From: a virus
DNA: 64,000 bases
Virus record (IMG/VR): IMGVR_UViG_3300035181_000357
Span: 1-64,000 of that record
Strand: one strand, 5' to 3'
Notes under the pieces: model-generated
Seen by the model: the letters and a program-made list of their open reading frames with translations, nothing else
Told to the model about the DNA's origin: nothing
Databases searched by the model: none
Program-made: the position numbers and the translations under genes
In this document: positions 10,166-33,245 of the stretch, one piece after another
Layout: the number at the start of each line of letters is the position of its first letter
Position numbering within the stretch: the stretch's first letter is position 1

Positions 10166-10622
10166 ACTGCTCTCTAATCTTTAGTACGAAGGTATCCCAA
10201 TCAGTTACTACTTCTTGACCATAATACTTAGCAGTGACATCAATATTACCTTTCCTGAAATACTTATCTGTACAGTATATCAAGACAGGAGCATTAGAAC
10301 CTAGACCCAATCCTAATTCCAGTAACGTGATTGGAGACTGGCTCCCATCTGCAAAATAGTATACAATCAGATCTGCATCTTCTTGTCCCTTTAGTTCCCA
10401 CTCAACCTGCTGTCTGAACTGTGGATCGTCAATACTCTGCTTCCAGCTACTATCCCAGTCATCTCGTCTTGGGTTAAGTAATAGAACATTCTCATCACTC
10501 AATTCTGAAGATAGCTTAGTCTGCCAATCTTCAGCGGATCCCATGTCGATAGAACCAGCTAAGAAGATGGTGAATTGAGCATCATTGTTATATGTTCCTG
10601 GTGCTTTTACTATCTTGGCCAT
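10152..10622 (-). CDS. Nucleoside 2-deoxyribosyltransferase-like protein
   Basis: A 156-residue protein with a Rossmann-like fold typical of the nucleoside 2-deoxyribosyltransferase / DUF4406 group. FLAGSIDMG (19-27) is the first strand and loop, LLLNPRRDDWDSSW follows, DADLIVYYF is the next strand, and LLELGLGLG near residue 110 supplies the conserved glutamate expected as nucleophile. Enzymes of this family exchange bases on deoxyribose or hydrolyse modified nucleotides. Next to the hydroxymethylase and MazG it probably processes pyrimidine deoxynucleotides, but the substrate cannot be read from the sequence. It shares a TAATG junction with the gene upstream. Confidence 0.75.
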   Translation of the reverse strand: MAKIVKAPGTYNNDAQFTIFLAGSIDMGSAEDWQTKLSSELSDENVLLLNPRRDDWDSSWKQSIDDPQFRQQVEWELKGQEDADLIVYYFADGSQSPITLLELGLGLGSNAPVLIYCTDKYFRKGNIDVTAKYYGQEVVTDWDTFVLKIREQCDNF

Positions 10623-11530
10623 TACAGTTCTCCTATATCGATACTCTTAGACATTGCTCTCTGAAAATCATCCATTATAGAATCAGGCATAGAGTCGTTC
10701 CCGATAATTGTTAAGGAATTTAACCTGGGATAAACATTTAATACCTCTGGATACGCATATGCGAAGACAGTTAATTTTCTAGCCAACAGCGAGCGGCCCA
10801 AAATATCCCCACCAGACTTTGAGAAGAACTTGGTATGGATCTTGGGAACCGCGATCCAGCCATCTGAGTTCTCCATCTGCATGGGGACAGTAAACTCGGT
10901 AGGCCACAGAAGTTGAAGAAGTTTGTGATGCGGTTGATGAAGTTTCATGTATTTCTCAACTTCAAACCGAAGCATAGACATATTCTGACTATCTGCGAGT
11001 GCAGGAGTCTGGTTCTTTGCAGATAGTCTCCAACTGATGTTGTTCGAGAACTTACCTGCAATACGTTCAATAGCTACTAGGTTAACAGCTTTGTTGTACG
11101 TCTCTGACCAAGGTGATTCACTCTTATCAATCTTCCCCTTAACCAATGGATCTGGAGATCCTAGTTTAACAGCATCAGCAGCCGTCTCCATGATGTCTCG
11201 TCGAAGACTATCTAGATCAAATTGGAACTGGGGAGCAGCCTGTAGATTTAGTATACACTGTGATGCAATGTTATAGTCTAGAAGATCTGTATTAGCCAAC
11301 TGTTTAGACAACAGGATCCCATCATATGTAACAGGTCTCTCTCGCTTAACTGATTCAAAGATATCAGAGAAGATAGTCCATACGAACTGTCTAGCATGGT
11401 CAGTCCGATCGAAAGCAATAGGAAGTTTACTCGACCAGTAATCAGCCATAGTTTCTTCAGTGGCCATAACAATTCCTACGACTTCACAGAATTGCTTTAA
11501 GATAACGTCATTAAGATTTTTAGAGCTCAC
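10622..11530 (-). CDS. Hypothetical protein, 302 aa
   Basis: Not recognised. A soluble, mixed alpha/beta protein without cysteine clusters, Walker motifs or membrane segments. The first 110 residues look helical, and the C-terminal 80 contain a stretch with GGDILGRSLLARKLTVFAYAYPE. It overlaps the end of the sbcD-like gene by 11 bases and starts with ATG preceded by GAGCTC, so it is in the recombination operon. It could be a replication or recombination accessory factor by position only. Confidence 0.7.
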   Translation of the reverse strand: MSSKNLNDVILKQFCEVVGIVMATEETMADYWSSKLPIAFDRTDHARQFVWTIFSDIFESVKRERPVTYDGILLSKQLANTDLLDYNIASQCILNLQAAPQFQFDLDSLRRDIMETAADAVKLGSPDPLVKGKIDKSESPWSETYNKAVNLVAIERIAGKFSNNISWRLSAKNQTPALADSQNMSMLRFEVEKYMKLHQPHHKLLQLLWPTEFTVPMQMENSDGWIAVPKIHTKFFSKSGGDILGRSLLARKLTVFAYAYPEVLNVYPRLNSLTIIGNDSMPDSIMDDFQRAMSKSIDIGEL

Positions 11531-12509
11531 AATAATCCTTTACCAGGTCTTTAACCGTTTTATCATCACAGATGGCATCTAGAATTTCTAGAGGATCATC
11601 TGACTCAACTTCTGATACTTGCTCTTCCATGTCATCTAGGAACATCTTCATCTCTTCAGATTTAGCTACTTTCTTCATAGATGAATCAGCTATCTGAAAA
11701 CATGCCTCTAATGGAACTGTTGGTACTATCTTCTCTACTACCTTAATCCCTTCTGCAGAAAAAGAGATTACTGGAACCACGATGTCACGATCGACTTCAT
11801 CGATTGACAAGCTGGCACGAGACAAGGATCCATAATGTAGGTGATGAGTCTTCCCGACTTTCTTTGGTTCAACTCGTGAATGGTCGTGTCCCCATAACAC
11901 TACATCAAACCCGTATGGTTCTAAAGTATTGTATCCAATAGTTCTTTCACCAAAGAAATCACCATCTTCACCAGGACGTCCTACCTGGTGGATCACAGCT
12001 ACACGGTAGCAATCATCATACTTGTCAATCTCTGGTTTAGAGGCTTTTAGTGCCTCTAACGTAGTCTCAGTGTCTCTGTAATCAAACCCAATTACCATAA
12101 CCCTGACACCCTCGTCCTGACACCTGAATACTGTAGGTTCAGTTATTGGGCGATAGACATGTGATGCAATCAGGACACCTAGGGGTGAGTTGTCTAGCGT
12201 TGATATGTTATGATTAAAATCGTGATTTCCAACAATCCCATAAATATTTCCCCCAGGAAAAGAAGAAAAAACCTCTATAGCCTGATTGATCATACTTGGA
12301 GGATTGGCTAGAGATTGCCACCTCTTAACATGAAACACATCCCCGCCACATATCGCAGCACCTTTAACTTTATGGGTGAGGGCACTGGCAAACCTTATCT
12401 TGCCCAGGATGGTCTGTTCATAATTATCTCGTCGTCTTCCAGGAGGAGTAGCGGATAGATGAATATCGGTAATGAAGGTTAGATTTATTTTATGATGATT
12501 TAGTATCAT
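11520..12509 (-). CDS. sbcD: SbcD/Mre11-like metallophosphoesterase
   Basis: The nuclease partner of SbcC/Rad50. The binuclear metal site is complete: TDIHLS (residues 14-19), GGDVFH, GNHDFNH, HQVG and WGHDHS occur in the canonical order of calcineurin-like phosphatases of the Mre11 type. The length (329) is close to that of bacterial SbcD and T4 gp47. The C-terminal 70 residues are acidic and helical and may dock onto the SbcC coil base. It lies downstream of sbcC-N, the coiled-coil gene and the deaminase, with a 106-base leader containing a (GAGAA)16 repeat. The SD is GGAAG. The predicted complex processes DNA ends and hairpins during replication and recombination. Confidence 0.9.
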   Translation of the reverse strand: MILNHHKINLTFITDIHLSATPPGRRRDNYEQTILGKIRFASALTHKVKGAAICGGDVFHVKRWQSLANPPSMINQAIEVFSSFPGGNIYGIVGNHDFNHNISTLDNSPLGVLIASHVYRPITEPTVFRCQDEGVRVMVIGFDYRDTETTLEALKASKPEIDKYDDCYRVAVIHQVGRPGEDGDFFGERTIGYNTLEPYGFDVVLWGHDHSRVEPKKVGKTHHLHYGSLSRASLSIDEVDRDIVVPVISFSAEGIKVVEKIVPTVPLEACFQIADSSMKKVAKSEEMKMFLDDMEEQVSEVESDDPLEILDAICDDKTVKDLVKDYCEL

Positions 12510-12615: not shown

Positions 12616-13206
12616 TTAATCGATAACTCTTATGAATTTCATACCAGAATTCCTAGATATCCAGGATAATGCTGGTCTATCATACTCGGGTTGAGGTCTA
12701 TCTGTTTTATATATGACTGTATTAACATTCCGAACTACACATTGTTTAGCACAATCTAAACAGGGGACAGCTGAGCAGAATAACACATACCCATCTTTGT
12801 CATTCAGATTAGATACCCTTGAAAATGCATCTATTTCTGCATGTATAGTCAGTCTACAGGTTCTTTCAGGTTGACATCCTATATCATTACATGAGAGTTC
12901 GTTGTCTTTTGAATATGGATAACGATTATATCCATATTCAGATTCTCTACTTTGGATAGAATAGATACATGACCCTATCTTAGCTCTACAGCATGGGGAG
13001 AAAGAACTTGTGATCTCTATATCCTTGAATATTTTAGATGTAAATTCATCTAGTTCAGCCAAGCCACCTAGCCCGAGAAGACCTGTTAAATAACTAGCCA
13101 TATCAAATTCTGGTTCCACTGGATACCAGATTATATTGTCACTATAGTCTAACTTTAGTTTAGACTCAGTTAAAGGATCACCGAATTCTTCTTGGACGAA
13201 TCGCAT
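12616..13206 (-). CDS. dCMP deaminase family protein
   Basis: A 196-residue zinc-dependent cytidine/deoxycytidylate deaminase. The catalytic motifs are HAEIDAF (122-128, zinc ligand His and proton-shuttling Glu) and PCLDC (148-152, two zinc-ligand cysteines). It would convert dCMP to dUMP, supplying thymidylate precursors and competing with the hydroxymethylase for dCMP. The region before HAE is long and includes CCRAKIGSC and SCNDIGC, with extra cysteines suggesting a second zinc site as in some phage and human dCMP deaminases. The start shares one base with the stop of the coiled-coil gene (TAATG). T4 carries the same pair of enzymes. Confidence 0.85.
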   Translation of the reverse strand: MRFVQEEFGDPLTESKLKLDYSDNIIWYPVEPEFDMASYLTGLLGLGGLAELDEFTSKIFKDIEITSSFSPCCRAKIGSCIYSIQSRESEYGYNRYPYSKDNELSCNDIGCQPERTCRLTIHAEIDAFSRVSNLNDKDGYVLFCSAVPCLDCAKQCVVRNVNTVIYKTDRPQPEYDRPALSWISRNSGMKFIRVID

Positions 13207-13484
13207 TAGAGCTCCTTGAACTTAGATACCAAGGTCTCGGCCTTTTCAAGCGTCTCTTCTATCTCAGCCAGTACTTTTTCAGATTCAGCTTGAAGCTTCT
13301 CCTGCAGTTCCTTTATCTCCTGAACAGATAGTTCTTCTACATCATATCCAAGATCAGAAAGTTCTTTCATAGCTCTCTTCTTATTCTGCTCTTCGACAGC
13401 AATCTTACCTACGATCGCTTCTTTGCTTTTAGTGAGAGTCACTACTCTCTTCTCAACGGCTGCAATTCTCTCTTGAGTATCCAT
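13206..13484 (-). CDS. Coiled-coil protein, 92 aa; possible returning coil of split SbcC
   Basis: A 92-residue, Lys/Glu-rich protein that looks like one long coiled coil broken once around DLGYDVEEL (residues 45-53). It starts with ATG directly after the TAA of the sbcC N-half, and the two frames are the same, so only one stop codon separates them. GAGG upstream gives it its own ribosome binding site. Since the N-half ends at the zinc hook, this coil is positioned where the descending arm of SbcC would begin. No Walker B or signature motif is present here; those lie in 32508-33227. A small separate chaperone-like coil cannot be excluded. Confidence 0.75.
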   Translation of the reverse strand: MDTQERIAAVEKRVVTLTKSKEAIVGKIAVEEQNKKRAMKELSDLGYDVEELSVQEIKELQEKLQAESEKVLAEIEETLEKAETLVSKFKEL

Positions 13485-14660
13485 TTAAACCTCTACTTTA
13501 AACATGTAACCACACTTAGGGCATTCTACTTTTGACGCTTGTTCTATCTGTTCTTGCTTACGGAGATCCTTTAAATCTCCTGATGTAGATTCTAAATCTG
13601 ATGATACTGTATCTAAGTCATTTTTGAGCAGCTTCAATAACCTGATATATCCGATGTAGTTGGGAAGTAACAGACACGCCGTATCTAGGTCTAGCAATTT
13701 CTTCTTATCTTTATTCAAGGAATCAGTGTCTAGAGCCTTAGTATCCAGGGTCACACTCTTTTTATTATATACATCTAAGAGGTATACAATAGAAGATAGT
13801 CTGGATTGTTTGTTTACAAGCTCCACTAGTTCCTTGAATGTTTCTAAACTTTTAGAAGATAAAGAATACGCGTACCTTGAATATCTATATGTGGATAGTA
13901 GACTAGATACCTTAGAGTTATTGGCTACAGGAGTCAAATCAAAATCTAGAACATCTATCTCAGATTTAGTCTCTACTAACTTATCTAGTTTATCAGATGT
14001 GATTAAAAATGTATCGACACAATCTACTGTGTCTAACAGTTCATTGTTCCTAGAATCCAATTTCTTTAAAGTTTTGGAAACAGGTTTAGCTTGTTCCAAG
14101 AACATACTTAGTTTATGTGCTTTAGCCTCTGCATCAGTTATCATCTTAGCCGTTACTTTAGCCTCTACATCTAGTTCTTTTATCTTCGTACCGATCCTTT
14201 TCTTACCTTGATCTAATTTCTCTGTTGAAGAAAATGCACCCAACACAGTGTTCAAATCAGCTGGTGAACTACAAAGAAGGAATTGATTATCAAACTGACC
14301 ACCAAAGATGGGATCAAGCTCGACATTCCCAATATGGATAGAAGAGTACCCCATCTTAGCAACAGCTTCTGGGATATTCCCTGCGAGCTTCCCATACTCT
14401 ACACCGTTCACGGTATAAGTAGTAGCAGCCTTCGTAGTTCTTTTAGCAACGACAGTGTTCTTATCAAAAGAGATAGAAACAGCTAATTCTGTCTCACCTA
14501 TCTTGATCTTGTTAGCACCGATATCATTCCTAAATGTTCCACGAATCATTCGAAATACAGAAGACTTACCAATATCTGAGGGACCCACTATAGCAGTGAA
14601 TCCCTCGATATCAAGAAATGCATCTGACCAAGATTGAAAGTTAGATGCTTGTACTCGCAT
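13485..14660 (-). CDS. SbcC/Rad50 N-terminal half (ATPase Walker A, coil, zinc hook)
   Basis: A 391-residue protein that matches only the first half of SbcC/Rad50. Residues 1-20 form the first strand, GPSDIGKSS (26-34) is the Walker A, and FDNQFLL (about 122-128) fits the Q-loop. Residues about 145-375 are largely helical, and the C-terminus has CPKCGYMF (about 381-388), the CxxC zinc hook where the Rad50 chain normally turns back. No ABC signature or Walker B follows; these occur in 32508-33227, about 18 kb away. Its stop is immediately followed, in frame, by the ATG of a coiled-coil gene. It begins in a one-base overlap with recA. Expected partner: the SbcD-like nuclease at 11520-12509. Confidence 0.85.
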   Translation of the reverse strand: MRVQASNFQSWSDAFLDIEGFTAIVGPSDIGKSSVFRMIRGTFRNDIGANKIKIGETELAVSISFDKNTVVAKRTTKAATTYTVNGVEYGKLAGNIPEAVAKMGYSSIHIGNVELDPIFGGQFDNQFLLCSSPADLNTVLGAFSSTEKLDQGKKRIGTKIKELDVEAKVTAKMITDAEAKAHKLSMFLEQAKPVSKTLKKLDSRNNELLDTVDCVDTFLITSDKLDKLVETKSEIDVLDFDLTPVANNSKVSSLLSTYRYSRYAYSLSSKSLETFKELVELVNKQSRLSSIVYLLDVYNKKSVTLDTKALDTDSLNKDKKKLLDLDTACLLLPNYIGYIRLLKLLKNDLDTVSSDLESTSGDLKDLRKQEQIEQASKVECPKCGYMFKVEV

Positions 14661-15913
14661 TAGAACTCGTCTTCATCGTCTAAAATATCAGCGGATCCAT
14701 CGAATTCAGCGATATCTACACCATCTTCTTTGTGACCAGCCACTAACATCTCACCCTCGGTCAATACCGTATCAAAGGCTCCAGAATTATCAGAACGAAT
14801 GACTTCAACGAGCTGAGCTTTCAATCTGGTTAAGACCTCGAGATTTTCATCATAGACTAGATCTCTTACAGCCTGTTCCTTGTTGTCGTAGGTAGCGATG
14901 ATGTCTTCGTCGATCCCGACGAGCCACTTCTGACCCTTGTTCCTAATAAGACCATAACTACGAGCAAGCTCACGAACAGACATCCAATCATCAAGGCCAC
15001 GACCAGTTCTAAGATAGATAGAGTATTCTCTGTAGCTACCCATCGTAACCTTGTTCTTAAGAACTCGAACCTTGACCTTGGTAGCTTTGACACTCTTTGA
15101 GCTATTACTGTCAGACTCTGCTTCCATCAAGAAAGGATCGTCCACAGCACCCTTTAAAGCCTTCTGAGCATTGACTTCGATCATCAAAGATGGGACGTAG
15201 CGAACACTGTTTCCACCAGGTAGAACATATGGTAGATTGGTGTAAGATGGGTACTTTTGAGCCATAGCAGCCTCTTGACTACCATCGATACGAGCACGAA
15301 TCTGATTAACCATCAAGAATGAACAATCATGCTGCATTGCATATGGTAAAAGAATATCGAAGAAACGAACCATCATACGAGCGTGTTCTCCGACGCTTGC
15401 CTTGAAAGCTTGACCACTGCGGATGTCCTTCTTGTCTCGCTTCTGCTTCATCTTTGGAATGGAGTCGAATACGAACAGCTTACATCCGGCTTCAATGTAC
15501 TCCACAGCCTTCTGAATACAGTCCTCAATATCCGAGATCTTGAATACAGCGAGACCTGGACCAGTATTAACACCGACATTCTTAAGGTATTCGAAGGTGA
15601 CAGTTCCTTCAAAGTCGAAGATTACTGCAGGTAATCCAGTTTCTTTCTGGTAATTCTTCACCAAGTGATAACAGATAGTTGATTTACCGCCATGTTCTTT
15701 ACCATGAATATGGATTACACGACCACCAAAGGGGATACCTTGTAATCTTAGAACTTCATCCCAGACAATCGAATTGGTTGGGACCTTATGTTCTTGGTAA
15801 TTCTCGTCGATTAGGAACGAATTCGCATCATCTTTATACGATGCAGATAAAGAGGCAAACCTTGTCATCACATCACCACTAAGATCTTCTGATTTTGTTT
15901 TCTTTCTTGCCAT
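14660..15913 (-). CDS. recA: RecA/UvsX-like recombinase
   Basis: A 417-residue strand-exchange ATPase. GKEHGGKST (71-79) is the Walker A, preceded by the typical GGRVIHIHG strand. VIFDFEGTV and LFVFDSIP give the next conserved strands, the latter being the Walker B, and LMVNQIRARI matches the RecA/Sak4 'NQ' strand after loop 1. The C-terminal 50 residues are acidic (ending DILDDEDEF), as in RecA, where such a tail modulates DNA binding. The protein forms filaments on ssDNA and drives recombination-dependent replication and repair. It is in one operon with the RuvC-like gene upstream and sbcC-N downstream. Confidence 0.9.
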   Translation of the reverse strand: MARKKTKSEDLSGDVMTRFASLSASYKDDANSFLIDENYQEHKVPTNSIVWDEVLRLQGIPFGGRVIHIHGKEHGGKSTICYHLVKNYQKETGLPAVIFDFEGTVTFEYLKNVGVNTGPGLAVFKISDIEDCIQKAVEYIEAGCKLFVFDSIPKMKQKRDKKDIRSGQAFKASVGEHARMMVRFFDILLPYAMQHDCSFLMVNQIRARIDGSQEAAMAQKYPSYTNLPYVLPGGNSVRYVPSLMIEVNAQKALKGAVDDPFLMEAESDSNSSKSVKATKVKVRVLKNKVTMGSYREYSIYLRTGRGLDDWMSVRELARSYGLIRNKGQKWLVGIDEDIIATYDNKEQAVRDLVYDENLEVLTRLKAQLVEVIRSDNSGAFDTVLTEGEMLVAGHKEDGVDIAEFDGSADILDDEDEF

Positions 15914-29276: not shown

Positions 29277-30190
29277 ATATCTCCCAATACTTTAATTCTA
29301 CCCTTAAACATCTGCATGATATCAGAGTTATCTTCGGGTTCGACATTTTTCTGAGGTGAATCCTCTAGCACTACCTGCTTGACCTGAGCCTTTATCTTGG
29401 TCACACATTTAGACAACTCATACAAGAACAGAGGTAGAATATCGACAGATGTCTGGACATTCCACTTTAGGAATAATGTGGTAACTTTCTCAGTTTCAGG
29501 AAAAGAACTCCTGATGGCTTCCCTGATCCTAGTTTCTTCTTTGGATATATACTCATCTTTGTCGAAGAAGCATTTTCCATAGTATGAGAACATATAGTTG
29601 ATAACTGTTTTATCTTCTTGTTCTTCACAGATAGCCATAGCCTCTTCTAGATTTCCGGTAGCCACAGCAGTGAAAGTTTTATATGCGATCTCATCTTCGT
29701 TGTTTTCCAGATTATCGTTCACTGATTCCCTGGATATCTTTCCTATCTTAGACAGAGTAGCTATGAAATTCTTAGCTTGTCTAATATTCCCTCTCGACTT
29801 CCTTACTACGCGATTCAAACCCTCTACAGTAAATCCAATGTTATTCTTAGAACAGAGAGCCATCAAGTACCCAACCATGTCTTTTTGATTTACCTTATTA
29901 AGATGAATCCTACAAGCTCTGGATCTGGTTGTTTCAGGTAATTTATCGTAATCCTGAACTTCCATAAAAGTCGTATGATGCTCAGAACTCAGTTCATTGG
30001 AGATAGTATAGGATATATTTTCTTTATCCAGTACTGAAGCTAGGTAGTTTATTATACTAGTTTTACCAGTACCTGGAGGTCCATCAAGGATTACCAATCT
30101 CGGGAATCTCTTTATATCAGTAAGTAGACCTCTGATGAGTTTCAGAGGTCTATCTTGCCCGATTATCTGGTCTAGACTTAGTAGTTCCAT
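29273..30190 (-). CDS. Clamp-loader-type AAA+ protein, shortened (no visible Walker B)
   Basis: A 305-residue protein resembling the DnaX/RFC clamp-loader subunit. The start (LLSLDQIIGQDRPLKLI) and Walker A GPPGTGKT (37-44) are typical, and ETTRSRACRIHL (86-97) matches the 'SRC' arginine-finger segment, followed by the lid domain and a helical collar. However, only about 40 residues lie between the Walker A and the SRC motif, where about 90-100 are usual, and no DEAD/DExx Walker B is seen. The T4 counterpart gp44 has it. It may be an inactive or delta-like subunit that needs an ATPase partner encoded elsewhere. It is adjacent, with no gap, to the gene at 30191-31459. Confidence 0.7.
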   Translation of the reverse strand: MELLSLDQIIGQDRPLKLIRGLLTDIKRFPRLVILDGPPGTGKTSIINYLASVLDKENISYTISNELSSEHHTTFMEVQDYDKLPETTRSRACRIHLNKVNQKDMVGYLMALCSKNNIGFTVEGLNRVVRKSRGNIRQAKNFIATLSKIGKISRESVNDNLENNEDEIAYKTFTAVATGNLEEAMAICEEQEDKTVINYMFSYYGKCFFDKDEYISKEETRIREAIRSSFPETEKVTTLFLKWNVQTSVDILPLFLYELSKCVTKIKAQVKQVVLEDSPQKNVEPEDNSDIMQMFKGRIKVLGDI

Positions 30191-31460: not shown

Positions 31461-32228
31461 TTACTCCTCTTCCTCTAAAATGGTTATGTTTGTAGCCATC
31501 ACTGACTCGTTCTTATCTATAATACGTCTTAAAGTGTCCCTAAGTATCAATGCGTGTTTCCTATTCTCTAAGGCAAGGCTGGCGTCCTTCCCAGGTGTCT
31601 TCACTATCTCCACAGTCATAGACTTGAAGGTTCTGGCTACGATCGTCATGGCTTCAATACCGACAGGATCCTGGTCGAACATGAGATATAGGGTCTTGAC
31701 TCCAAGCATCTGGAGATAGGCTTCCTGTTTTCTACCGATCTTCTTTGTTAGCGAGCAGAGAACTGGAATATCTGCATTTAGTGCTCTAACAGCTACGAAA
31801 TCGAAAGTACCTTCCACGACTAAAACATATCCTAGTTTCTGGATCCTGGCGAGCATCTCATTACTGTTCCCAAGCCAACTTGGTCCTAGAAAATTATCTC
31901 TATCCCCTGCGATCCAATATTTTGCACCATCTTCACCTAGAGGTTTTGTCTGTGCCTTCATTGCTACATCGTTAAGATCATATTGTGGGAATACGAATCT
32001 TGGACCAGGTTCAAATCCCTTTGGTACATACATAATAGTATGATCTGATACACATTTGGTCAAGTTAGGTTTGATCAAGTCCTCAACCTGTCCCCAATTA
32101 CGTTCTTTAATGATCTTTATGACACTTGCTTGTACCCAACCAGACTTACCCTTCTCTTCTAACCTCTTGTACAAGCCCTTGACTTTCCTGATCAAGAACT
32201 CTACATCATCCCACCACTTTTTACTCAT
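31461..32228 (-). CDS. Second TOPRIM primase-like protein
   Basis: A 255-residue protein with a TOPRIM domain in its C-terminal half: YVLVVEGTFDFVAVRALN (E139) and LYLMFDQDPVGIEA (D185, D187). The N-terminal 60 residues are helical and basic, and the middle has FVFPQYDLNDVAMKAQTKP, comparable with the strand before TOPRIM in DnaG. The start is ATG 32228, which makes an ATGA overlap with the preceding stop; the frame opens 10 codons earlier. It differs enough from 24052-24942 to be an old paralogue or a different domain class, such as a primase-like helicase or OLD-type TOPRIM. Its helicase partner is not visible. Confidence 0.7.
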   Translation of the reverse strand: MSKKWWDDVEFLIRKVKGLYKRLEEKGKSGWVQASVIKIIKERNWGQVEDLIKPNLTKCVSDHTIMYVPKGFEPGPRFVFPQYDLNDVAMKAQTKPLGEDGAKYWIAGDRDNFLGPSWLGNSNEMLARIQKLGYVLVVEGTFDFVAVRALNADIPVLCSLTKKIGRKQEAYLQMLGVKTLYLMFDQDPVGIEAMTIVARTFKSMTVEIVKTPGKDASLALENRKHALILRDTLRRIIDKNESVMATNITILEEEE

Positions 32229-32593
32229 TCTTCCCCATCCAACATTCCTAATACCCACAGGAGAACGGCTACGTCGCGATATTCACGAGGTAGGATTTGT
32301 GGATCCTTTATCTCTTCTCTGAAACCTTCGAGCAATTCTTCTTTTGTATATTTAGGTTGGAACAGATCATGATCTTTGCAAGAATCGGGATCTTTAGATT
32401 TACAGAAAGTACATCTATCCTCACCAAAATCTAGGTGTTTCACCATATCAGGATTTACGAAAGATAGTGCACCTTTACAGTTACCGACACATGGTTCAGA
32501 ATTTCTTTTAAGAAACTTCTTCTTGTGTCTGTGGATCAGGTCTCTTAGCCTTTTCTGTATTTCCTGACTTGATTTTATTTTTATCTCTGCCAT
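32225..32593 (-). CDS. Zinc-motif protein, 122 aa
   Basis: A small basic protein with CVGNC (35-39) and CTFC (62-65), plus CKDH just after, giving enough Cys/His ligands for a zinc knuckle. It precedes the second TOPRIM gene with an ATGA overlap, so together they could form a split primase: a zinc-bearing polypeptide beside a TOPRIM polypeptide. The start overlaps the end of the SbcC C-half gene by 86 bases in another frame, unusually long for this genome. Confidence 0.6.
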   Translation of the reverse strand: MAEIKIKSSQEIQKRLRDLIHRHKKKFLKRNSEPCVGNCKGALSFVNPDMVKHLDFGEDRCTFCKSKDPDSCKDHDLFQPKYTKEELLEGFREEIKDPQILPREYRDVAVLLWVLGMLDGEE

Positions 32594-33227
32594 CTGTGGT
32601 TATTTCCATAATGGATTGTGGATCTATTTCTTTAATCGTAGGACCAGTCGGTCCTTCTGCTACTTGATACACTCTGTCAGCAGCAGAAGCTAATTCAGGT
32701 TGATGTGTTACGGCCAGAATCTTGAACCCATGGTCATTTGTGAGAGTTTGTATCAATTCCGATACCTTTGGTAAATACTCTTTACTGACATTATTAAAAC
32801 TCTCGTCAACTGCCAGGAACTTAGCCATTTTAAATCTTTTAATCATGATTACACGAAGAAGAAACGAGGCTAGATTGACAACCCCACCACCAAATGAATC
32901 GAAAGGATCACCAACGAGATCACCTTTCTTAATCTGGATCTTGTAGGTAGTTCCTTTAGCTCCATCTTTCTTTTCGATGACTAAACTGGTCTTCTTACCG
33001 AAGACTAGACGTATACCACCAGTTACAATGGATTCAATCTTACCGATCCCCTTGGAACTGACTATCTGTGTCATCTTGTCGATAGTTCCCTGGGCCTTGA
33101 CCAGATTTACTTTGGTCTCTAGCAAGGAATCCACCCTCTTTCTGAGAGAATCTATATTACTGTTCTCCGAATCGAGGACACGGGATTGGGAATCTACAAA
33201 ACTACTGAACTCTTGAATGTTTATCAT
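32508..33227 (-). CDS. SbcC/Rad50 C-terminal half (signature, Walker B)
   Basis: A 239-residue protein that matches the second half of SbcC/Rad50. A short coil (about residues 15-60) is followed by ATPase motifs in order: the ABC signature as SFGGGVVNLASFL (about 111-123), Walker B FLAVDES with the catalytic glutamate (137-143), the D-loop segment FNNVSKE, and the H-loop AVTHQP (172-177). No Walker A or zinc hook is present; these are in 13485-14660. The two would have to associate to bind ATP. The C-terminal 40 residues are a polar tail overlapping the next gene. Start is ATG 33227 with a weak SD. Confidence 0.85.
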   Translation of the reverse strand: MINIQEFSSFVDSQSRVLDSENSNIDSLRKRVDSLLETKVNLVKAQGTIDKMTQIVSSKGIGKIESIVTGGIRLVFGKKTSLVIEKKDGAKGTTYKIQIKKGDLVGDPFDSFGGGVVNLASFLLRVIMIKRFKMAKFLAVDESFNNVSKEYLPKVSELIQTLTNDHGFKILAVTHQPELASAADRVYQVAEGPTGPTIKEIDPQSIMEITTDGRDKNKIKSGNTEKAKRPDPQTQEEVS

Positions 33228-33245
33228 CAAATTACATGATACTCA

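Follow-up and report, generated by a model that had tools for sequence, protein, structure and literature searches.

Rad50 probably encoded as two separate halves, cut at the zinc hook, in a giant phage and its relatives

A giant phage very probably has a split Mre11-Rad50 (SbcCD) complex for end processing, in which Rad50 is made as two polypeptides, an N-half and a C-half (probability about 0.88). The stretch of DNA analysed, referred to below as the window, comprises the opening 64 kb of a virus record of 210,611 bases. The reading rests on sequence motifs, predicted folds, co-occurrence of the two genes, their fixed order and permuted fusions; from these we infer the assembly of the complex, its activity and the role of a third protein of 92 aa.

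The N-half is a protein of 391 aa (13485..14660, minus strand) in which profile comparison and an AlphaFold model place an N-lobe with Walker A, a long helix (residues 144-237), a distal region and a C-terminal CPKC. The Walker A-bearing N-lobe that marks members of the Rad50/SbcC family is present (GPSDIGKS, residues 26-33; 14562..14585, minus strand), and so is the CxxC zinc hook of the coil apex, carried here on a free C-terminus (CPKC, residues 380-383, eight residues ahead of the stop; 13512..13523, minus strand). Across 39 aligned N-halves only G26, G31, K32, R37, N45, P97, C380 and C383 are invariant, which includes three Walker A residues and both hook cysteines. In the PDB the N-half profile finds N-lobe chains of Rad50 (1f2t_A, 3aux, 5f3w), and the family profile also matches the zinc-hook crystals 1l8d and 6zff; the AlphaFold model is poorly resolved past residue 238.

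Scans of viral contigs with a single protein or with two sequences returned no relatives, and neither did a nucleotide search of a phage collection with the region, but a profile search of viral contigs found 51 further N-half loci. All complete N-halves among them end just after CxxC, except that of locus L062. When three scans of viral contigs were combined, CxxC lay no more than 35 residues from the end in 178 of 180 complete N-half ORFs, a set in which some loci overlap and which does not represent 180 independent genomes. The initial annotation had asked whether the TAA is kept in relatives; it can be seen that the end of the N-half just past CxxC is conserved. In Tunturi_5, the nearest annotated relative, the N-half ends shortly past CGKCG. 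A scan of genome contigs with the N-half of phage vB_BboS-125 gave one weak locus. The hook cysteines are missing in phage Magritte and a few relatives; N-halves without any CxxC are Magritte gp155 (L012:5839-6891) and L062:7992-9053, both from genomes that encode a separate C-half at another site.

The C-half gene lies 18 kb from the N-half gene (32508..33230, minus strand) and encodes 240 aa from its first start (ATG at 33227), with a helix at residues 5-77 followed by a C-lobe, as judged by profile, AlphaFold and Foldseek. It carries a signature-like DSFGGGV (32880..32900, minus strand; G114 invariant and G115 nearly invariant in 19 sequences), degenerate compared with LSGGE, a Walker B FLAVDE (32802..32819, minus strand; D142 and E143 invariant in 19 sequences) and an H-loop VTHQ. 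The elements of the C-lobe are all present, on a separate polypeptide and with a degenerate signature; the ATPase motifs are divided between two genes and are invariant within each family. AlphaFold gave a model of one 73-residue helix plus a C-lobe (pLDDT 86), whose best PDB matches in Foldseek were SMC and Rad50 C-lobes (1f2u_B/D, TM 0.73-0.76; 1xew_Y, 0.74; target-normalised). Among PDB chains, the C-half profile likewise hits C-lobes of Rad50 and SMC, including 1f2t_B, from an entry in which the lobes are present as separate chains. A PF13558 search for a C-lobe in the phage's own record gave zero matches, and the family (208-246 aa) was found instead through clustering of the genes neighbouring N-halves; a C-half scan of genome contigs returned no relatives. 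C-half ORFs of 336-489 aa were considered as fusions and rejected, as, judging by their translations, they continue upstream into the reading frame of an overlapping gene. Tunturi_5 ORF174, another candidate C-half, is a DnaB-like ATPase. Directly downstream of the C-half is a conserved gene for a small protein (cluster 10; 32225..32593, minus strand), a family that holds this place next to the C-half in many other phages as well.

An Mre11/SbcD partner is encoded near the N-half: a metallophosphoesterase of 329 aa (11520..12509, minus strand; Pfam Metallophos, 1.1e-8) that is 37% identical to Tunturi_5 SbcD. Nearly all relatives likewise have SbcD near the N-half. Directly upstream of the N-half is a UvsX/RecA-like recombinase (14660..15913, minus strand). 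The neighbourhood in Tunturi_5 is like that of the window, with SSB, RuvC, UvsX, the N-half, a small coil and SbcD. In vB_BboS-125, an AP2-domain gene lies between N-half and small coil, and an unannotated SbcD-like metallophosphoesterase frame of 372 aa stands beside the split Rad50 genes (NC_048735.1:22513-23010; L246). The gene directly downstream of SbcD in the window (10622-11530) encodes 302 aa. It and a relative in L015 (14017-14967) have in common a KSGGD/E motif and a start that by eye resembles DnaB-N, and neither has a Pfam match. The window gene (KSGGD...LTIIGND), which also lacks a PHROG match, had been considered as the C-lobe and was dropped after the true C-half emerged. In many such operons a further family (cluster 4, for example L011:9810-10820; about 300-340 aa, with a cysteine-rich C-terminus that by eye is Cas4/RecB-nuclease-like) lies between SbcD and the small coil; none was seen beside the window's module.

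The split system has the N-lobe, the hook, the C-lobe and the SbcD partner in common with canonical Rad50/SbcC and SbcD. However, the canonical protein is a single chain, which turns back at the hook (1048 aa in E. coli SbcC, 560 aa in T4 gp46, 636 aa in Twort SbcC), whereas in the split system the hook is cut and there are two genes plus a small hairpin protein. The single polypeptide running from N-lobe through coil, hook and coil to C-lobe was looked for, two genes were found in the window, and this feature sets the split form apart from canonical Rad50/SbcC. In the control, Twort SbcC, residues 6-334 (with the hook at 323) match the N-half profile and residues 436-633 the C-half profile; in T4 gp46 and E. 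coli SbcC the split-family profiles also align N then C, weakly. Lobes of P. furiosus Rad50 produced as separate chains assemble into one head. Crystals of its catalytic domain (1f2t, 1f2u, 1ii8) show one head built from N- and C-lobes as two polypeptides, like the phage halves; they are laboratory constructs, whereas the phage division is natural and falls at the hook. The initial annotation had remarked that a Rad50 cut at its hook would be a distinct architecture, and this view is upheld by its conservation across phages with the C-half as a gene of its own.

The halves are already present in databases under other names. PHROG 16465 ('exonuclease') matches the N-half and PHROG 15167 ('ATPase') the C-half, as two separate families whose annotations do not mention halves of one protein. 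Split genes are also found in the Bacillus phage vB_BboS-125 (N-half gp32, small coil gp34, C-half gp35), in Tunturi_5 (halves and small coil, gp181/gp180/gp14) and in the Microbacterium phage Magritte (gp155/gp2, the N-half being that without hook cysteines), where they are annotated just as exonuclease, ATPase or hypothetical. No published description of a split or permuted Rad50 was found in the open-access literature, to which the search was confined, subscription literature being outside its scope; the papers on jumbo phages consulted there handle SbcC as a single protein. Fusions of Mre11 and Rad50 (Mimivirus R555 and others) are a non-canonical rearrangement of the same complex, but they join SbcD to SbcC rather than split Rad50 (PMC3175470, in the passages considered here). 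According to the same passages, one of the SbcC P-loop segments was not seen in Anaerostipes and Bacillus phage 0305phi8-36; they contain no description of a separate C-half.

The 92-aa protein (13206..13484, minus strand) is a small coiled-coil protein predicted, from family alignment and AlphaFold, to form a helical hairpin. Members of its family, as a rule 86-97 aa long, occur in 34 of the 39 virus records having an N-half. The gene follows the N-half directly only in the window's own lineage; in most phages it lies several genes downstream, past SbcD, from which a nuclease-like gene often separates it; in L063 and L053 it adjoins the C-half. To judge from these sequences, it is an independent third gene. 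The N-half and the 92-aa protein were also modelled as one readthrough chain, a device for holding both in one AlphaFold model. The 92-aa part was predicted with moderate confidence as two helices (394-436 and 446-483), and the packing of the hairpin was not resolved (pTM 0.32).

One possible but doubtful reading is that the 92-aa protein is the descending-coil segment missing between hook and C-half, so that Rad50 would be in three pieces. The gap of about 100 residues between the N-half and C-half matches in Twort SbcC is the length of the small coil, the genes run N, coil, C, as the parts do in Rad50, wherever all three were found together, and no coil gene turned up in the phages with permuted fusions described below. 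On the other hand, the prediction for the protein is two helices separated by a conserved break, and its gene usually stands past SbcD, away from the N-half. Furthermore, when its profile was compared with pre- and post-hook segments of canonical SbcC, it preferred the post-hook half in just 8-9 of 27 proteins, mostly related T4-likes, which gives no support for a post-hook origin. Profile similarity between the small coil and the coil of the C-half was judged to be coiled-coil background. The 92-aa protein is a conserved third component, and as a predicted hairpin it most likely braces the distal coil or the hook region.

That the two halves are partners is indicated by how they occur together. 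A separate C-half is present in 34 of the 39 virus records having an N-half, the other five being records of 21-55 kb, and no full-length SbcC was found in the 39 records, the window's included, where SbcC-like profile matches fall on the separate halves. The N-half precedes the C-half on one strand in all 69 non-identical loci holding both; with a coil profile iterated on small ORFs, the gene order was N-SbcD-coil-C in 58 loci, N-SbcD-C in 10 and N-coil-C in one. Direct evidence, and the strongest, is that five phages (L241-L245) carry a single ORF of 604-685 aa in which the C-half profile match comes first, the N-half match second and a CxxC at the end (L241:8251-10308, L242:3516-5498, L243:8269-10302, L244:8314-10128, L245:8308-10224). 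Each of these records has exactly one match per half, both inside the fusion ORF; read from their sequences, the five are natural circular permutants ending at the hook. It could be argued from the 18 kb between the genes in the window that the N-half bridges DNA by means of its hook, independently of the C-half, and that the C-half belongs to another complex. This is very improbable, given the co-occurrence, the shared operon order, the natural fusions and an N-lobe that by itself lacks signature and Walker B. In L244 and L245, a gene of 104-105 aa is located between SbcD and the permuted fusion.

The junction between the N-half and the coil gene in the window reads GTA GAG GTT TAA ATG, with a gap of zero bases and an identical frame. 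As initially annotated, a 391-residue N-half ending at the CxxC hook is followed by TAA and the in-frame ATG of the 92-residue gene, and both ORFs were found as described. The TAA (13485..13487, minus strand) is, by sequence and family comparison, a conserved gene end, and the GAGG noted earlier was confirmed as a Shine-Dalgarno-like AGAGG (13490..13494, minus strand) 5 bases ahead of the ATG; at the homologous junction in Tunturi_5 the coil gene follows a 9-base spacer with its own GGAGG. The same arrangement could be taken as one gene with a leaky stop and a readthrough product of 484 aa, the more so as the frame is also identical in Tunturi_5 and in L013, L015 and L016. In the last three, however, the two genes stand about 100 bases apart, with several stops and a small ORF in the interval, and in most phages the coil gene is not linked to the N-half at all. 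Conserved in-frame linkage across one stop, as expected of readthrough, was therefore not found in the family. Moreover, of the 45 junctions between neighbouring genes in the window, 11 are within -4 to +3 bases, with a second zero-base junction at 30190/30191; abutting genes are ordinary here, so that the zero gap is not unusual. Together with the Shine-Dalgarno-like sequence ahead of the second ATG, this makes readthrough very unlikely, and neither the proposed 484-residue product nor the notion of an N-half separated from its own descending coil by a single in-frame stop could be sustained. That the stop truncates a once full-length gene, or is a sequencing error, is favoured by the stop itself and nothing else and can practically be dismissed, the same end recurring throughout the family, the C-half being preserved whole in a separate gene and the records yielding no full-length version. 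Scores of phages share the split and some rejoin the halves in reverse order, so that it is a genuine architecture rather than the product of a stray stop.

Rad50 drives Mre11 on DNA ends. In the split complex that we favour, the N-half would provide the N-lobe, the ascending coil and the C-terminal CPxC hook, and the C-half the descending helix and the C-lobe with signature and Walker B. By analogy with the lobes of P. furiosus Rad50, the halves should assemble into one ABC head, with N-half helix 144-237 pairing with C-half helix 5-77 as the head-proximal coiled coil. With ATP, two such heads would form a dimer that drives SbcD as a nuclease on the ends of phage DNA; this end processing may take place, alongside UvsX, RuvC and SSB, in recombination-dependent replication. 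The hook itself lies on a free C-terminus, and the 92-aa hairpin may brace or clamp the distal arm. Points that weigh against the split complex are the 18 kb between the halves in the window, the degenerate signature of the C-half, the hook cysteines missing from Magritte and a few relatives, and the poor resolution of the N-half model past residue 238. A more tentative extension is a Rad50 of three polypeptides whose coil is open at the hook: with free termini at the apex and the hairpin as a removable clamp, the phage might open or lock the arm, a state beyond canonical Rad50, and the circular permutants might be a second solution to the same topology.

The covalent turn of Rad50 at the hook is usually seen as part of DNA-end tethering and sensing. 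If the present reading is true, a widespread natural Rad50 without that turn, together with a permuted lineage, would mean that the continuous loop is dispensable. The small versions in vB_BboS-125 and Tunturi_5 would let head assembly and hook function be tested apart, and the PHROG 'exonuclease' and 'ATPase' families would be renamed as halves of one enzyme.
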